This document shows, piece after piece, positions 1 to 6,715 of a stretch of 34,764 bases of DNA. Position numbers and translations under genes: made by a program. The notes below the pieces were generated by a model, which was not told the origin of the DNA, searched no databases, and saw only the letters and a list, made by a program, of their open reading frames with translations. The DNA comes from Bacteroidota bacterium (GTDB taxonomy: Bacteria > Bacteroidota > Bacteroidia > Chitinophagales > Saprospiraceae), in the NCBI GenBank assembly GCA_003045895.1, contig PZPC01000055.1, positions 1 to 34,764 on the forward strand. Direction: 5' to 3'. Each line of letters begins with the position of its first letter. The first letter of the stretch is position 1.

Positions 1-1629
1 AGGACCATTAATTTCCGGATCAGCCCAAACGTTTTCATCAGGCAACCAGAACTTAACGTTTTTAGCAAATAAACCAATGGTCAACGCATCGATCGGCAGT
101 TTGCTGGTCACGCTCCGGGGGAAGGTGTAGCTCAAGCCTACTTCTCTGAGCTTTACGTAGCTGGCATCAATCAGGTGAGAGGTAAATGGTTGTACCCGCA
201 GATAATCGTAGGTGTTCGTTGTTTTGGTATTTTCAACATACTCCCCGTTGATCTCCTGTACGCTGTTGGGTATAACAAAAGGTGCGCCTCGGTTTTCCAA
301 CGACGATAAAGAAGTACCGTTGAATTCCGTCAAATCCTTGGTATAGGAAAGGAATTTGCCACCTTCTTTGAAGTCAAACAGGAAGTTGAACCGGAAACCT
401 TTATAGGTAAGGTCCGAGCCAATGCTGGCCTGCGCACTGTTCTGATCCACGTTGGCATAACTGACCGAGAAGCTACTGGAAATGCGCTCATTCAACTTGG
501 CCGTTGCGGCAAACTTGACCGTATTTCTTTGGTAGTCGGTGTTTTCCAGAATACCCTCTTGGGTGGTATTGGAAAAAGAAGTATAGTAGGTCAGCTTATC
601 CGTACCACCCGACAAATTGATGCCGTTCTGGTAAGTTGCTCCCGTCTTGAAGAAATTCTGCAATTGATCTTCGACCGCATTGTAGGGGCGAGACAAAAAC
701 TCCAGATCGCCATCACCGTCGGCATCTACCGGGCTGGTCCATGGCCGTACCCGGCCATCAAAAGCAGGACCCCATGACCAGTTCTCACCAGAATCAAAGC
801 CTGGAACGGCGGCAAATGGCAAGCCAAATCCCTGACCATACTGGTCTTGGCGCTGCAGCAACACATAAGCCCGCTCCAGCGAAGTAGAGGAAGAAACGCC
901 TACTTTCATTTTACCCTGGCTGGCTTGTCCTTTCTTGGTTGTGATGACCAATACACCAGATGCACCCCGCGAACCGTAGAGCGACGTAGCTGATGGGCCT
1001 TTCAAAACGGTAACGGACTCAATATCCTCGGGGTTGATGTCATTGAAACGGTTGCCGTAGTCGGCATAACCATTCGAACCCGCAGAGTTTTGGTTAGAGT
1101 CTCCACCAGCAGAAGTGGAGTTGTCGATGATGACACCATCTACCACGATCAGGGCGTTGTTGTCACCCGTCAGAGAACCTTCTCCACGCAGTACGATACG
1201 GGTGGAAGCGCCAACAGAACCAGAGCCCGTCGACAATTTTACCCCTGCTACTTTGCCACGCAAAGCTTCCAGGGTATTTTTATTCGGTGCTGACAGGAGG
1301 TCTTCTGAGCCTACTGTTTGGTTGGAGTAGGTCACATTACGTGCATTCCTTTCCAGACCAGTAGCAGAAACGACGATCTCGTCCAGCAGGTTAACAGCAC
1401 TCAGTAAAACAACGTCAACGACAGTTGCTCCACCTACCACAACCGTTTTCGGAGAAAACCCCGTATAGCTGATTTCAAGTTCAGTTGCGTCTTTTGGGAA
1501 AACCAACGAGAATTTCCCGTCGAAATCCGTCACCGTACCAACCGAAGTGCCCTTGGCCACCACCGTCGCACCAATGAGGGTTTCCCCATCGACATCAGTA
1601 ACAGTTCCTGTTATTGTTCGCTGCGCCAT
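1..1629 (-). CDS. SusC/RagA-family TonB-linked outer membrane protein, partial, 5'-truncated and internally deleted (probable pseudogene)
   Basis: Reading the minus strand from an ATG at 1629 gives 543 open codons to the window edge. Residues 5-80 are a carboxypeptidase-regulatory-like domain (starts MAQRTITGTVTDVDGE). About 110-235 is the TonB plug, ending in the SusC/RagA signature LYGSRGASGVLVITTKKG. The last 50 residues (ASYVKLREVGLSYTFP) match the region just before the C-terminus of the family. Known members have about 1000 residues and import glycans or peptides with a SusD partner. Here only about 160 residues separate the plug from the C-terminal region, so most of the barrel is missing; the join is near residues 393-400 (about 430-450). 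The N-terminus is also broken: GLAMAQ looks like the end of a signal peptide, but an in-frame TGA lies five codons before the ATG and no hydrophobic segment precedes it. The family call is firm; function as a receptor is doubtful. Confidence 0.85.
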   Translation of the reverse strand, partial: MAQRTITGTVTDVDGETLIGATVVAKGTSVGTVTDFDGKFSLVFPKDATELEISYTGFSPKTVVVGGATVVDVVLLSAVNLLDEIVVSATGLERNARNVTYSNQTVGSEDLLSAPNKNTLEALRGKVAGVKLSTGSGSVGASTRIVLRGEGSLTGDNNALIVVDGVIIDNSTSAGGDSNQNSAGSNGYADYGNRFNDINPEDIESVTVLKGPSATSLYGSRGASGVLVITTKKGQASQGKMKVGVSSSTSLERAYVLLQRQDQYGQGFGLPFAAVPGFDSGENWSWGPAFDGRVRPWTSPVDADGDGDLEFLSRPYNAVEDQLQNFFKTGATYQNGINLSGGTDKLTYYTSFSNTTQEGILENTDYQRNTVKFAATAKLNERISSSFSVSYANVDQNSAQASIGSDLTYKGFRFNFLFDFKEGGKFLSYTKDLTEFNGTSLSSLENRGAPFVIPNSVQEINGEYVENTKTTNTYDYLRVQPFTSHLIDASYVKLREVGLSYTFPRSVTSKLPIDALTIGLFAKNVKFWLPDENVWADPEINGP

Positions 1630-1746: not shown

Positions 1747-3525
1747 ATGAGCAGTCCTTCCACTTTCCCAGGCTACTTTCCGGTAGAGCCGGCCCGGTCG
1801 CAGTTGCTGGCTGAGTTGTGGCAACACCAACTACAAGCGGGGTACATTTCGGCAGCCGCCATCCAGGCGTTGGCCGGGCGGCACCACCTTTCCGCCGTGG
1901 AGGTGGAAGGGGTTGCCTCCTTTTATCATTTTTTCCACCGGCAACCCGCTGGCCGGCACACCATCTACCTCAACAACAGCATCCTGGCAGAACTGCGCGG
2001 CTTCGACCAGCTCCAGGCGGCCTTTGAAACGGCTACCGGGGCGCGGATAGGCACCGTTGACCCCACCGGCACCTTTGGCCTCTTCACCACGCCCTGTATT
2101 GGCCTCAGCGACCAGGAACCCGCTGCCCTCATCGACTTTTACCCGTTCACCCACCTGACGACCGGCAAAGTTCAGGACATTGTGCAACAATTGCAGCAGG
2201 GCGCACGGGCTGCCGACCTCTGCGACCACCCCGCCGACCACATCCGCTACACGCCACCGGCTGGCCGAACGATCTTCTTTGCTCCCTATGCGCGCGGCGA
2301 AGCCATCCGGCAACTCCCCGCACTGGGCCCCGAGGGCGTGCTGGAGCAACTGCGGATCGCAGATCTCAAGGGGCGCGGGGGCGCTTTTTTTCCGACCCAC
2401 AAAAAATGGGCCGCCTGCCGGGCAACCGAAGACGCCCTCAAATTTATCGTCTGCAATGCCGACGAAGGCGAACCCGGCACCTTCAAAGACCGCGTGCTGC
2501 TGCACAGCCAGCCTGGCTCGGTGCTGGAGGGCATGGTCGTTGCCGGCTATACCGTGGGAGCCCGCTACGGCATCCTCTACCTGCGCGGCGAGTACCGCTG
2601 GCTCGCCCCCACCCTGCACGCGGAAATAGCGGCCTTCCGCGCGGCGGGCCTACTGGGTACGAACGTGGGTGGGATGCCGGGCTTCGACTTCGACATTCGC
2701 CTCGAAATCGGCGCCGGCGCCTACGTCTGCGGGGAGGAAACCGCCTTGCTGGAATCCCTGGAAGGCAAGCGCGGCGAACCCCGCACCAAATGGTTCTACC
2801 CGGTCGAGAAAGGCTACCTCCAACGGCCCACCGTCATCAACAACGTGGAAACCTTCGCGGCGGCAACACGCCTGCTCCAACTGGGCACCACCGCCTATCT
2901 ACAGCGCGGTATCCCCGGCTCGGCCGGCACCAAGCTGATCAGCGTGGCCGGCGATTGCCAGCGCCCCGGCATTTACGAAATTGAATGGGGCATGACCGTC
3001 GGCGAATTGCTCGACTTGTGCGGCGCCCAGGATCCTTTCTTCCTCCAGGTGAGTGGCCCCTCGGGCGAATGCATCCCCGCGACCGCAAGCGACCGGCGCA
3101 TTTCGCTGCTCGACTTGCCGGGAGGGAATGACATCCGCTGCGGCGGCTCTTTCATGATCTTCAACCGGGGGCGCGACCTCGTGTCTATCCTCCAGAATTT
3201 TGCCCGCTTTTTCAAACACGAATCCTGCGGCGTATGTACCCCTTGCCGGGCTGGCAACTTCCTCATCGAACGCAAACTGGAACGCCTGCAAAACGGGCTG
3301 GCCGACCGCCACGACCTCGAAGACCTGAAAAGCTGGGGCCACATCATGAAAGCGACCAGTCGCTGCGGGCTGGGTAAAACGGCTACCCATACCCTCGTAC
3401 AAGCCATCGAAAAATTTCCCGCGTACTTCGCCGCCCGCTTTGCCGATACCGACAACAGCATCTACCGGAAATTCGACCTTGCGGCTGCCGTAGCCGATTA
3501 CGAAAAATACAAACCCAAATCCTGA
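1747..3525 (+). CDS. hoxF: HoxEF: NAD-reducing hydrogenase diaphorase subunit, NuoE-like domain fused to NuoF-like flavoprotein
   Basis: FMN/NAD-binding diaphorase subunit of a group 3d bidirectional [NiFe]-hydrogenase; it passes electrons between NAD(H) and the iron-sulfur chain in the cytoplasm. Numbered from a GTG at 1744 (593 residues; the ATG at 1747 is the likelier start), residues 1-165 are a NuoE-like thioredoxin fold and 170-593 are NuoF-like. Visible motifs are the flavin loop GRGGAFFPTHKKW (210-222), NADEGEPGTFKDR (238-250), GAGAYVCGEETALLES (323-338), and the [4Fe-4S] ligands C495, C498, C501 and C541. The NuoE-like part keeps only C118 of the four [2Fe-2S] ligands, as in the Ralstonia HoxF architecture, so it should carry no cluster. 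In the flavin loop, two positions that are usually glycine are F and H. First gene of the operon; its TGA overlaps the next ATG by one base. Confidence 0.95.
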   Translation: MSSPSTFPGYFPVEPARSQLLAELWQHQLQAGYISAAAIQALAGRHHLSAVEVEGVASFYHFFHRQPAGRHTIYLNNSILAELRGFDQLQAAFETATGARIGTVDPTGTFGLFTTPCIGLSDQEPAALIDFYPFTHLTTGKVQDIVQQLQQGARAADLCDHPADHIRYTPPAGRTIFFAPYARGEAIRQLPALGPEGVLEQLRIADLKGRGGAFFPTHKKWAACRATEDALKFIVCNADEGEPGTFKDRVLLHSQPGSVLEGMVVAGYTVGARYGILYLRGEYRWLAPTLHAEIAAFRAAGLLGTNVGGMPGFDFDIRLEIGAGAYVCGEETALLESLEGKRGEPRTKWFYPVEKGYLQRPTVINNVETFAAATRLLQLGTTAYLQRGIPGSAGTKLISVAGDCQRPGIYEIEWGMTVGELLDLCGAQDPFFLQVSGPSGECIPATASDRRISLLDLPGGNDIRCGGSFMIFNRGRDLVSILQNFARFFKHESCGVCTPCRAGNFLIERKLERLQNGLADRHDLEDLKSWGHIMKATSRCGLGKTATHTLVQAIEKFPAYFAARFADTDNSIYRKFDLAAAVADYEKYKPKS

Positions 3526-4793
3526 TGCCAACCTGTAACTTCTGGATCGATGGAAAGCAATACACTGCCGAAGCGGGTACCAACCTCGTGGACGCCGCCC
3601 GGGCGAACGGCATTTTCATCCCTTCGCTCTGCTATTTCCCCCACCTGGACCCACCCCTGGGCACCTGCCGTACCTGCACCTGCCAGATCAATGGCCGCTA
3701 CAACCCGGCCTGCACCGAATCCGTGCGCGAAGGCCTAAAAGTGGAAGTGTATACCCCGGAGCTGGTGGATATGCGCAAGGCCCTGGTGGAAATGATGTTC
3801 GCCGAAGGCAACCACTTTTGTCCGGCCTGCGAGAAAAGCGGCAACTGCGACCTGCAACACATGGGCTACGAACTGGGCATCTCCACCTCGCGCTTTCCCC
3901 ACCTGTTTCAGGACCGCCTGATCGACTACCGCCCCGAGCGACTGGTGCTGGAGCACAACCGCTGCATCAAATGCCGCCGCTGTGTGGAGGAGGTCTTCAC
4001 GGCCGACGGTCACCGGGTGTTCATGTACCTCAACCGGGGCAACGAAACGGTAGTGGGTATCGATTACGAGCAAGCCGCCCGGCTATCCGACGCGGAAACC
4101 CGGCAAGCCGCAAAAATATGCCCCACCGGCGCTATTCTCCTCCGTGGAAAAACCCTGGCGGAACCCTTTGGCAACCGCACGTTCGACCTGCACTCGGTGC
4201 AATCCTCCTACCAACACCCCATCAGCGAGGGCCCGCCGGCCACCCCCCGAAAAAAGAAGACCATCGCCACGGTTTCCCTGGCGGGCTGCTTTGGTTGCCA
4301 CATGTCTATGCTGGACATCGATACCGAATTCCTGGAAGTTGCGGAATTGGTCACCTTCAATAAATCGCCGCTCACCGACATCAAGACCTTCACCCAACGC
4401 TGTGACCTGGGGATCGTAGAAGGCGGCTGCGCCAACGCAGAGAACATTGAAACCCTGCGGACATTCCGCGAAATGTGCGACATCCTGGTGGTCATGGGCG
4501 AGTGTGCCCTCTGGGGCGGCGTGCCCGCGCTGCGCAACACCTTCCCGCTGGGCGAGTGCCTGGAGGAGGCCTACCTGCACAGCCTCACCAGCGAACCCGG
4601 CGAACGCACTATTCCCTACAGCGAAGACCTGCCCAAGATCCTGAACCGGGTCTACGGCTGCCACGAGATCGTCGAAGTCGACTACCTGATCCCCGGCTGC
4701 CCACCCGCCGCCAGTCACATCTGGAAAGTGGTAAAAAGCCTGTTGTGGGGCGGCGACGATTCCCTCTTGTACGCCGAATTCAAATACGATTAA
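3525..4793 (+). CDS. hoxU: HoxUY: fused diaphorase small subunit (HoxU) and hydrogenase small subunit (HoxY)
   Basis: One uninterrupted 422-residue frame joins two proteins that are separate in the well-studied hox systems. Residues 1-225 are HoxU: [2Fe-2S] ligands C36, C48, C51 and C63; a NuoG-like set H97, C99, C102 and C108; and [4Fe-4S] ligands C147, C150, C153 and C199. Residues 226-246 form a Pro/Lys-rich linker (SEGPPATPRKKK). Residues 247-422 are HoxY, with proximal [4Fe-4S] ligands in GCFGC (C255, C258), GECALWGG (C327) and PGCPP (C392). All cluster ligands of both halves are present, so both look functional. The fusion would tether the diaphorase and hydrogenase modules through one chain carrying the whole electron wire. 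The start overlaps the hoxEF stop (TGATG), suggesting coupled translation. Confidence 0.95.
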   Translation: MPTCNFWIDGKQYTAEAGTNLVDAARANGIFIPSLCYFPHLDPPLGTCRTCTCQINGRYNPACTESVREGLKVEVYTPELVDMRKALVEMMFAEGNHFCPACEKSGNCDLQHMGYELGISTSRFPHLFQDRLIDYRPERLVLEHNRCIKCRRCVEEVFTADGHRVFMYLNRGNETVVGIDYEQAARLSDAETRQAAKICPTGAILLRGKTLAEPFGNRTFDLHSVQSSYQHPISEGPPATPRKKKTIATVSLAGCFGCHMSMLDIDTEFLEVAELVTFNKSPLTDIKTFTQRCDLGIVEGGCANAENIETLRTFREMCDILVVMGECALWGGVPALRNTFPLGECLEEAYLHSLTSEPGERTIPYSEDLPKILNRVYGCHEIVEVDYLIPGCPPAASHIWKVVKSLLWGGDDSLLYAEFKYD

Positions 4794-4794
4794 C

Positions 4795-6252
4795 GTGAAA
4801 AAGAAAATAACCATCGACCCCGTCACCCGCGTGGAAGGACACGGCCGGGTAACCATCCACCTCGACGCCCACGGCAAAGTGGAAGATACGTTCTTTCACA
4901 TCGTGGAATTTCGGGGGTTTGAACGATTCATCCAGGGCCACCCCTACTGGGAAGCGCCCGTGCTGGTGCAGCGGCTCTGTGGCATTTGTCCGGTGAGCCA
5001 CCACCTGGCCGCGGCCAAAGCCATTGACCAACTGGTCGGTATCGACCCGGCGGCGCTGTCGCCGGCGGCTTCCAAGCTCAGAAGACTACTCCACTACGGC
5101 CAGATCTTCCAATCCCACGCCCTGCACTTCTTCTACCTGGCTTCCCCCGACCTGCTTTTCGGGATGGACGCCCCGGCAGCAAAGCGGAACGTGCTGGCGG
5201 TAGCCATCGAAAACAAGGACCTGGCGCGCAAAGGCATCCTGATGCGCAAATTTGGCCAGGAGATCATTCACGCCATTGCCGGCAAAAGGATCCACGGGGT
5301 GGCGGCCGTGCCGGGCGGGATGTACAAAACCTTTACGCCGGAAGAAAGGGCCTATTTCCTTGACGGGAAAGACATACCCAATATCCAGACCATGATCACC
5401 TGGACCCAGGAGGTGCTGACGCTGCTCCGTGGATACCACGAAAAAGACCGGAACCTGTTCGACACCTTTGCCCGCTTCCCTTCCGGCCACCTCGGCATGG
5501 TGGACGACCGGGGTAACCTGGAACTCTACCACGGCCGGTTGCGCGCCATCGACAGTACCGGCAACATCACCCTGCCCGACGTGCCGACCGACGACTACCA
5601 GCAGTATTTTTCGGAAGCGGTAGAGCGGTGGTCCTACATGAAATTTCCCTACCTGAAAGCCGTCGGTCGGGAGCGGGGCTGGAACCGCGTGGGGCCGCTG
5701 GCCCGCCTCAATGTCTGCACCGCCATCCCCACGCCGCTGGCCGAGCAGGAACGGCAGGCTTTTTTTGCCTTCTCCGGGCAACCGGTAAACAACAGCACCC
5801 TCTACTCCCACTGGGCGCGCCTGATTGAAATGCTGCACTGCGCCGAAATGATCCAGGACTTGCTCCACGATGAGGAGATGATGAGCACCGACCTGGTGCG
5901 GGAAGGCACCCCCCGGCTTGAGGGCATCGGCATCATCGAAGCCCCGCGGGGCACCCTCACCCACCACTACCAGGTCGACGAGCGGGGCATGATCACCCGC
6001 TGCAACCTCATCGTCTCCACCACCCACAACAACGAAGCCATGAACCGGGCCGTGCGCTGGGTAGCCGACCAGGTGATCAGCGAACAGGGTACCCTCACCG
6101 ATGGCATGCTCAACCAGGTAGAAGTCGCCATCCGCGCCTACGACCCCTGCCTGAGCTGTGCAACGCAAGCCCTGGGCCAAATGCCCCTGCGGGTGGAACT
6201 GTGGAATCACCAGGGAAAAGTAATCGATGAACGCCGCAAAAATGGCTACTAG
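4795..6252 (+). CDS. hoxH: HoxH: NAD-reducing [NiFe]-hydrogenase large (catalytic) subunit
   Basis: Catalytic subunit that splits or forms H2 at the Ni-Fe(CN)2CO centre, paired with the HoxY half of the upstream gene. It has 485 residues, the usual HoxH length. Motifs are RVEGHGR (12-18), RLCGICPVSHH (60-70; Ni ligands C62 and C65) and DPCLSCATQALGQMPL (450-465; C452 and C455). The residue after which the C-terminal peptide is normally cut is His in the family; here it is Gln458. A 27-residue tail after it suggests a protease-matured precursor, and hoxW follows directly. The start is GTG at 4795, one base after the hoxUY stop; it gives the canonical N-terminus MKKKITIDPVTRVEGHG. The end overlaps hoxW. 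Confidence 0.97.
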   Translation: MKKKITIDPVTRVEGHGRVTIHLDAHGKVEDTFFHIVEFRGFERFIQGHPYWEAPVLVQRLCGICPVSHHLAAAKAIDQLVGIDPAALSPAASKLRRLLHYGQIFQSHALHFFYLASPDLLFGMDAPAAKRNVLAVAIENKDLARKGILMRKFGQEIIHAIAGKRIHGVAAVPGGMYKTFTPEERAYFLDGKDIPNIQTMITWTQEVLTLLRGYHEKDRNLFDTFARFPSGHLGMVDDRGNLELYHGRLRAIDSTGNITLPDVPTDDYQQYFSEAVERWSYMKFPYLKAVGRERGWNRVGPLARLNVCTAIPTPLAEQERQAFFAFSGQPVNNSTLYSHWARLIEMLHCAEMIQDLLHDEEMMSTDLVREGTPRLEGIGIIEAPRGTLTHHYQVDERGMITRCNLIVSTTHNNEAMNRAVRWVADQVISEQGTLTDGMLNQVEVAIRAYDPCLSCATQALGQMPLRVELWNHQGKVIDERRKNGY

Positions 6253-6715
6253 GCAACTCCTCCTCGGTATTGGCAACAGCGGCCGGGCCGACGATGGCCT
6301 GGGCTGGGCCTTTGCCGAAGCCTTCTCGGGCCAGACCGATTTGTTTGCCGTAGAACTGCGCTACCAACTGCAGATCGAAGACGCGCTGCTGATTAGCACC
6401 TACCAGCGGGTCGTCATCGTCGACGCTTCGGTCACCGTCTACGACCAGGGCTATTCCTGGTCCCGGTGCCAGCCCCGGCGCACCGACGCTTTCACCACCC
6501 ACCAGCTGGCACCCGCCACCGTCGTCTACCTGGCCCAGGAACTGTACCAATGCACGCCGGAAGTGTATGTGCTCGCCATTTCTGGCGTCGACTGGGAGCT
6601 GCGCACCGGGCTCAGCCCTACTGCTGAGCGGAATCTGGCTAAGGCAAGGGCTTTTTTTGGGGAAAAGTGGGAAGGCGATCGAAATCGGAAGTCGGAGGTG
6701 GGAAGTCGGAAGTAG
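6227..6715 (+). CDS. hoxW: HoxW: hydrogenase maturation protease (peptidase family M52)
   Basis: Nickel-sensing endopeptidase that trims the C-terminus of the HoxH precursor after metal insertion. The frame has 162 residues; GIGNSGRADDGLGWAF near the start, VIVDAS in the middle and TTHQL further on supply the acidic/acidic/His metal-sensing residues of the HybD/HoxW family. A second ATG at 6242 gives a start (MATRQLLLGIGN) closer to the family norm; the overlap with hoxH is then 11 bases rather than 26. The last dozen residues (RNRKSEVGSRK) are encoded by the purine-rich repeat tract that begins here, so the C-terminus is probably an extension into repeat DNA. Last gene of the hox operon; no hyp genes follow. 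Confidence 0.93.
   Translation: MNAAKMATRQLLLGIGNSGRADDGLGWAFAEAFSGQTDLFAVELRYQLQIEDALLISTYQRVVIVDASVTVYDQGYSWSRCQPRRTDAFTTHQLAPATVVYLAQELYQCTPEVYVLAISGVDWELRTGLSPTAERNLAKARAFFGEKWEGDRNRKSEVGSRK

Follow-up and report, generated by a model that had tools for sequence, protein, structure and literature searches.

Genes of the hox operon

The 34,764-nucleotide stretch of DNA analysed here (hereafter the window) is contig PZPC01000055.1 of a Saprospiraceae genome (Bacteroidota bacterium, GCA_003045895.1), a draft of 5.57 Mb in 161 contigs with an estimated completeness of 99.84%, in which it is numbered C152. Towards its 5' end lies an operon for a putative nicotinamide adenine dinucleotide (NAD)-linked [NiFe]-hydrogenase, in which HoxU and HoxY are encoded by a single frame. 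The genes run in the order hoxF-hoxUY-hoxH-protease, all on the forward strand, with neighbours abutting or overlapping:

1747..3525, +, hoxF: diaphorase subunit with a flavin mononucleotide (FMN)/NAD domain and an N-terminal HoxE-like domain, a single chain of Ralstonia type; alternative start GTG at 1744
1792..2196, +, HoxE-like domain inside hoxF (Pfam PF01257 and alignments)
3525..4793, +, hoxUY: fused HoxU-HoxY, 422 amino acids (aa) in one frame
3537..4187, +, HoxU part, about residues 5-221 (Pfam)
4188..4250, +, linker, residues 222-242 (21 aa), between the hidden Markov model (HMM) envelopes; its sole start-type codon is a GTG
4251..4790, +, HoxY part, residues 243-422 (Pfam Oxidored_q6)
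4795..6252, +, hoxH: [NiFe] large subunit with RLCGIC and DPCLSC motifs
6227..6715, +, HoxW-like maturation protease, overlapping hoxH (TIGR00072, 58.4 bits; cut-off 47.45)

An earlier note on this DNA had given the interval 1747-6715 to the hydrogenase and its make-up as HoxEF, HoxUY and HoxH. With HoxEF read as HoxF, that make-up holds at the gene level, and the interval also contains the protease gene, whose product (6227-6715) matched no Pfam family at a threshold of 0.001.

The HoxUY chain

The frame at 3525-4793 (+) runs through 422 residues without a stop and encodes a complete HoxU, the 21-residue linker and a complete HoxY. Pfam domains follow one another in the order Fer2_4 (5-75), NADH-G_4Fe-4S_3 (84-123), Fer4_Nqo3 (142-204) and Oxidored_q6 (255-405). 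The nearest solved chains are 5xf9_B for residues 6-223 (its positions 13-230 of 242) and 5xf9_C for residues 234-422 (positions 3-189 of 189), both labelled NAD-reducing hydrogenase; as aligned, HoxUY is two nearly whole proteins joined end to end. Every one of the 16 cluster ligands that the earlier note had read in this frame is present: C36, C48, C51 and C63; H97, C99, C102 and C108; and C147, C150, C153 and C199 in HoxU (which, as is usual in the family, would hold one [2Fe-2S] and two [4Fe-4S] clusters), together with C255, C258, C327 and C392 for the [4Fe-4S] cluster of HoxY.

These ligands are identical in all 61 fused rows of an alignment drawn from 60 loci (in which three pairs are near-copies at more than 95% identity, including one identical pair). 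Mean pairwise identity among the fused rows is 0.616 for HoxU and 0.686 for HoxY, compared with 0.126 for the linker (residues 224-243), and this combination of conserved domains and variable linker is what two functional domains connected by a free spacer would show. Linker length is 20-26 residues in 60 of the 61 rows (median 22) and 48 in the remaining one; this long linker, in L027 (728-2083), carries Asn-Asp-Gly repeats. None of the reported Pfam or NCBIfam models covers the whole chain, and the HoxU equivalog of NCBIfam reaches a score of 170 where its cut-off is 333, so HoxUY proteins may be poorly named.

AlphaFold2 modelled the HoxUY chain alone, from 142 rows, among them relatives with HoxU and HoxY as separate proteins, with a predicted local distance difference test (pLDDT) score of 88.5 and a predicted template-modelling (TM) score (pTM) of 0.82; pLDDT was lower in the linker (74 for residues 221-230 and 65 for 231-240). 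Foldseek with this model returned 5xf9_C first (target TM 0.92), followed by the 5xf9 HoxU chains (5xf9_B 0.79). The high pTM suggests a defined placement of the HoxU and HoxY halves, with the reservation that pTM is no proof of a HoxU-HoxY interface and that a model of the chain built on 25 close rows scored poorly (pLDDT 56.9, pTM 0.38).

Enzyme class and closest relatives

Large subunits of group 3d carry the metal-binding motifs RxCGxC near the N-terminus and DPCxxC near the C-terminus. Both are present in the window HoxH (RLCGICPVSH and DPCLSCAT), whose best solved match, 5xf9_D at 518.6 bits ahead of 7t2r_D at 460, puts it nearest the group 3d enzymes; the same operon holds a diaphorase module, HoxF (with its HoxE-like domain) and HoxU, homologous to NuoE, NuoF and the N-terminus of NuoG.

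In most [NiFe] enzymes His (or Arg) closes the C-terminal motif, a feature not specific to group 3d; the closing residue sits at the protease cleavage site and binds metal in other hydrogenases. The residue after DPCLSCAT in the window HoxH is Gln, not His. Across 111 HoxH rows, of which seven were unreadable at this position, the motif closes with Gln in 15 and with His in 89 of the 104 readable ones. A single change on the tree accounts for the 15 Gln-bearing rows, which include the isolate Ginsengibacter hankyongi; read from alignment and tree, the Gln is a subclade trait.

The HydDB paper lists HoxH of Phaeodactylibacter xiamenensis as group 3d (PMC5037454). A HoxUY fusion occurs in a Phaeodactylibacter metagenome-assembled genome (MAG; L039), the group 3d label being that of P. 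xiamenensis; on a quick tree, L039 HoxH groups with two genomes of the window's family, which makes Saprospiraceae, as GTDB defines it, the probable family.

As in Ralstonia-type enzymes, the HoxE-like domain lies within HoxF and is without a full [2Fe-2S] ligand set, whereas HoxU and HoxY, separate chains in that type, are here one frame. HoxF (Pfam 2Fe-2S_thioredx at 17-151, Complex1_51K and NADH_4Fe-4S; nearest solved chain 5xf9_A) is homologous over its whole length to the 602-aa single-chain HoxF of Cupriavidus necator H16, with 46% identity over 583 columns. Taking the ligand cysteines of HoxE to be C-x4-C and C-x3-C, one of the four positions aligned to those of separate cyanobacterial HoxE is kept in the window and two of four in C. 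necator HoxF; the [2Fe-2S] cluster of this domain is probably absent. The HoxF of Ralstonia eutropha (C. necator) has likewise been described as resembling an Nqo1-Nqo2 fusion without cluster N1a (PMC3189943), and HoxF of the non-bifurcating hydrogenase as equivalent to two fused subunits lacking the cluster (PMC8880783). The HoxE-F fusion, which the earlier note had named beside the HoxUY fusion, is the ordinary state of Ralstonia-type HoxF, and we rejected it as a new feature.

The best solved match for all four subunits is HoxFUYH of Hydrogenophilus thermoluteolus (PDB 5XF9), whose HoxF also carries a HoxE-like domain and whose HoxU and HoxY, in contrast to the window, are separate chains (5xf9_B, 242 aa; 5xf9_C, 189 aa). 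HoxFUYH(I2) of C. necator H16, encoded on pHG1, shares the gene order (hoxF-hoxU-hoxY-hoxH-protease) and has a HoxU 48% identical to that of the window, but its hoxU and hoxY are separate genes in different frames with a 4-nt overlap. The C. necator operon is followed by a cyclic-nucleotide-binding-domain protein, presumably HoxI, and the window operon by a GNAT acetyltransferase gene. Cyanobacterial HoxEFUYH has homologous subunits but a separate HoxE with the ligand cysteines and separate HoxU and HoxY (L095). HydA of [FeFe]-hydrogenases (e.g., CpI, group A6) likewise joins a HoxU-like FeS module to a hydrogenase domain in one chain; that catalytic domain is an unrelated H-cluster domain, not a [NiFe] small subunit, and over the whole chain Foldseek gives a root-mean-square deviation of about 20 between HydA and HoxUY.

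Occurrence of the fusion

The search for single proteins covering both HoxU and HoxY, proposed in the earlier note, found them in many related bacteria. We searched three overlapping sets, so that their counts are not additive, and scored fetched loci with HMMs of both halves. In the family set (199 genomes including the window's, 76 of which match at 0.001), 26 loci were fused and 3 split; the remaining matches were short, for the most part between the HoxU part and longer frames, and probably represent NuoG or further relatives. Among 395 genomes of the phylum, 89 matched at 1e-30, and the 30 loci fetched comprised 7 fused (the window being one), 17 split and 6 with the HoxU part only. The best 80 of 584 relatives on named genome contigs divided into 30 fused, 49 split and 1 cut by a contig end; more independent fusions may exist at lower identity beyond these 80. 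Named isolates with the fusion are G. hankyongi, Lutibacter citreus, L. agarilyticus, Winogradskyella alexanderae, Lutimonas halocynthiae, Pontibacter ruber and Botryobacter ruber. On plasmids, 104 of 72,556 records matched at 1e-20, all below 60% identity, and among the matches listed (40 of 104) the 4 that cover at least 80% of the query each have two annotated genes in the matching region.

In two of these isolates the operon is duplicated in part. The genes of W. alexanderae (L051, 1460-9298) run F-UY-F-UY-H, a tandem HoxF-HoxUY before one HoxH with all 16 ligands in both UY copies, and those of L. citreus (L050, 1208-7730) run F-F-UY-H.

The earlier note knew of no described HoxUY fusion, and none was found in the literature searched, which leaves most subscription journals outside its reach; 'HoxUY' denotes a pair of separate cyanobacterial genes in PMC2674450 and PMC4918915.

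Among the best 80 of 584 named loci, the closest HoxUY relatives of the window (79% and 77% identity) are in MAGs labelled Flammeovirgaceae and Cyclobacteriaceae. Fused relatives in the window's own family are 52-67% identical, and the two genomes of its genus among those listed are without HoxUY (one, G155, with a weak 31% match and the other, G062, with none). Given these closest relatives outside the family and the same-genus genomes without HoxUY, the hox operon of the window may have been horizontally acquired.

Origin of the fusion

A HoxH tree built from 55 fused and 56 split rows (111 in all, C. necator H16 and Lichenicola having come from plasmid sequences) requires two changes of state. 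The 52 fused rows of Bacteroidota, Balneolota and Chlorobiota type and the 3 from Woeseiaceae each occupy one side of a branch, with support of 100/99. The same two changes appear on a quick HoxH tree of 110 rows and on a tree of 128 rows built from the U and Y domains, concatenated with the linker removed, where Woeseiaceae stand beside split Sideroxydans, Nitrosomonadales and gammaproteobacterial rows with support of 100. A single fused clade was rejected on the HoxH tree by the approximately unbiased (AU) test (log-likelihood difference 76.8, p-AU 0.00148), a p value that is weaker than it looks, since the group tested was already visible on the quick tree and the test presumes groups named beforehand. 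Two further points weigh against two origins: the large fused clade of the UY tree has a Shimodaira-Hasegawa-like approximate likelihood ratio of only 85, and long-branch warnings attach to both the HoxH tree (C. necator, Lichenicola and others) and the UY tree.

The HoxH tree dropped loci that duplicate the window or a named locus (L032, L033, L116, L117, L119), as well as L030, L031, L097, L101 and L034 (HoxH split over two frames). Any locus with a HoxH below 300 aa or without both U and Y was also dropped, with the loss of fused L015, L017, L022 and L027. The UY tree used the same list but kept L034 and dropped L018 and L088, and the quick tree also dropped L105 and kept L117 and L119. In L034 (6260-7719, a Flammeovirgaceae MAG), HoxH lies in two overlapping frames, probably through an assembly frameshift.

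Gene spacing in split relatives bears on how the fusion may have come about. The count took in neighbouring U-Y pairs with a gap of no more than 60 nt or an overlap of up to 200 nt, a HoxU score above 140 and a U frame shorter than 330 aa; duplicates and L097 were excluded. Of 63 split pairs, 40 have their genes in the same frame, separated by one or more stops, and 26 by exactly one stop. For the 38 pairs with a HoxU score of at least 195, 26 are in one frame, 16 of these one stop apart, and in those 16 the domains are 18-25 codons apart (median 22). Because the linker is as long as the gap between hoxU and hoxY in split relatives, stop loss is a likely origin: a lost stop codon likely explains both the ease of the fusion and the length of its linker. 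The hoxU stop would have been lost beside an in-frame hoxY once at the base of the mainly Bacteroidota clade and once in Woeseiaceae. This account fits less well with the spacing across all 63 split pairs, which reaches 85 codons, and with the 12 of 38 higher-scoring pairs that are not in one frame.

Proposed mechanism and alternative explanations

We consider it likely that the window encodes a group 3d, Ralstonia-type NAD-linked [NiFe]-hydrogenase with a fused HoxUY chain, its halves physically tethered; this confidence covers the identity of the enzyme, the fused chain and the physical existence of the tether, the benefit of the tether being contested by the neutral explanation weighed below. 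The enzyme would be cytoplasmic and built of three structural chains, HoxF, HoxUY and HoxH. As in its family, H2 would be split at the NiFe site of HoxH, and electrons would pass from the [4Fe-4S] cluster of HoxY through the three clusters of HoxU to HoxF, where FMN would reduce NAD+. Since HoxUY is one chain, contact between the halves would be intramolecular. The tether would bridge the HoxU-HoxY contact, set their ratio at 1:1 and hold the diaphorase half to the hydrogenase half, which would favour assembly and leave no free HoxFU pool. It would thereby likely improve stability or assembly.

Unfused enzymes differ in how well they hold together. Synechocystis HoxEFUYH readily falls apart into HoxEFU and HoxYH (PMC7363133), and the soluble hydrogenase (SH) of Rhodococcus opacus dissociates easily, whereas that of R. 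eutropha does not (PMC3189943); the statement in the earlier note that the halves can come apart holds for the first two and fails for the third. When the halves of the R. eutropha SH were supplied in trans, activity was half, perhaps, in the authors' view, through less efficient assembly (PMC3189943). The stability of the unfused C. necator (R. eutropha) SH speaks against a tether being needed for stability in general (PMC3189943).

For this reason, a real but neutral fusion, in which the stop was lost and the product folds with assembly, stability and electron flow unchanged, is a serious rival and a real possibility, even if we lean against it. In this enzyme family HoxU and HoxY are 1:1 neighbours anyway, only two gains were found, and the sequence of the linker is unconserved. 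Against neutrality, linker length stays in a narrow range, the fusion arose twice, and the sampled rows include no return to separate genes, the 52 Bacteroidota-type fused rows lying on one side of a branch. The linker also bears on whether the fused frame is made and HoxY or HoxU is additionally freed, by an internal start or by proteolysis, leaving a working enzyme of four chains. Being variable and rich in Lys and Pro, the linker is probably exposed; that of the window has one GTG, and 29 of 61 fused rows have an ATG within the linker or among the first four codons of Y. Yet ATG is absent there in the other 32 rows, 14 have no ATG, GTG or TTG, and linker length is kept in nearly all rows. 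An internal start as a general way to release HoxY was rejected on this lack of conservation, and we regard a four-chain enzyme as unlikely.

The tethered group 3d enzyme is challenged far less by the two remaining explanations. A bifurcating, ferredoxin-linked enzyme is suggested by the HoxU-like N-termini that also occur in bifurcating HydA (e.g., 7t2r_A), but a NiFe-HydABCSL assignment, which calls for a HydA extension and a HydC with an intact [2Fe-2S] cluster, runs against the gene structure: the HoxU part has no HydA-like extension, ending at about residue 221 to be followed by HoxY, and the HoxE-like domain lacks three of its four cluster cysteines. Each of HoxF, HoxU, HoxY and HoxH has a chain of 5xf9 as its best solved match, 5xf9 is non-bifurcating according to PMC8880783, and we judge bifurcation very improbable. 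An assembly or sequencing artefact, with a lost stop or an indel near 4190-4270 as the earlier note had cautioned, would be conceivable in a draft genome of this many contigs. It was rejected, with a probability that we regard as negligible, because the fusion recurs in independent assemblies: in 26 of the 199 family genomes, in named isolates of several families and in the relatives at 79% and 77% identity.

In general, it is common for neighbouring subunits to become fused during evolution. A broader reading is that two lineages independently made a tethered three-chain group 3d enzyme without a free diaphorase, selected for joint assembly and an uninterrupted path from H2 to NAD+, in parallel with the joining of a HoxU-like module to the catalytic domain in [FeFe]-hydrogenases, and that the His-to-Gln change in HoxH of the window's subclade marks a distinct functional class; we offer this tentatively and hold it to be rather doubtful. 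Dissociation of the diaphorase bears on the cellular role of free HoxEFU and on NADH regeneration by soluble hydrogenases. A natural, widely conserved HoxUY tether provides a ready scaffold and allows the same enzyme to be compared with and without it, and the fusion marks, at the level of gene structure, a large subclade of group 3d that is mainly Bacteroidota.

Genomic surroundings

The genome also encodes HypD, HypE and HypF, two COX1-type oxidases and, as a second [NiFe]-hydrogenase, a membrane-type enzyme with a b-type cytochrome, a gene content that fits an aerobe sending H2 electrons both to a membrane chain and to NAD+. This second hydrogenase (L148, contig C115, 7345-13312) comprises genes for the small subunit, large subunit, b-type cytochrome and protease, and is followed by a protein above the cut-off of 'type III sulfide quinone reductase, selenoprotein subtype' and a DsrC/TusE-like protein.

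Before the hox operon, positions 1-1629 (-) of the window encode a TonB-dependent SusC-like receptor cut by the contig end; read from the sequence, an ATG near 1629 opens its frame, and the product seems to have no signal peptide. The 121 bases 5' of hoxF occur once in the genome.

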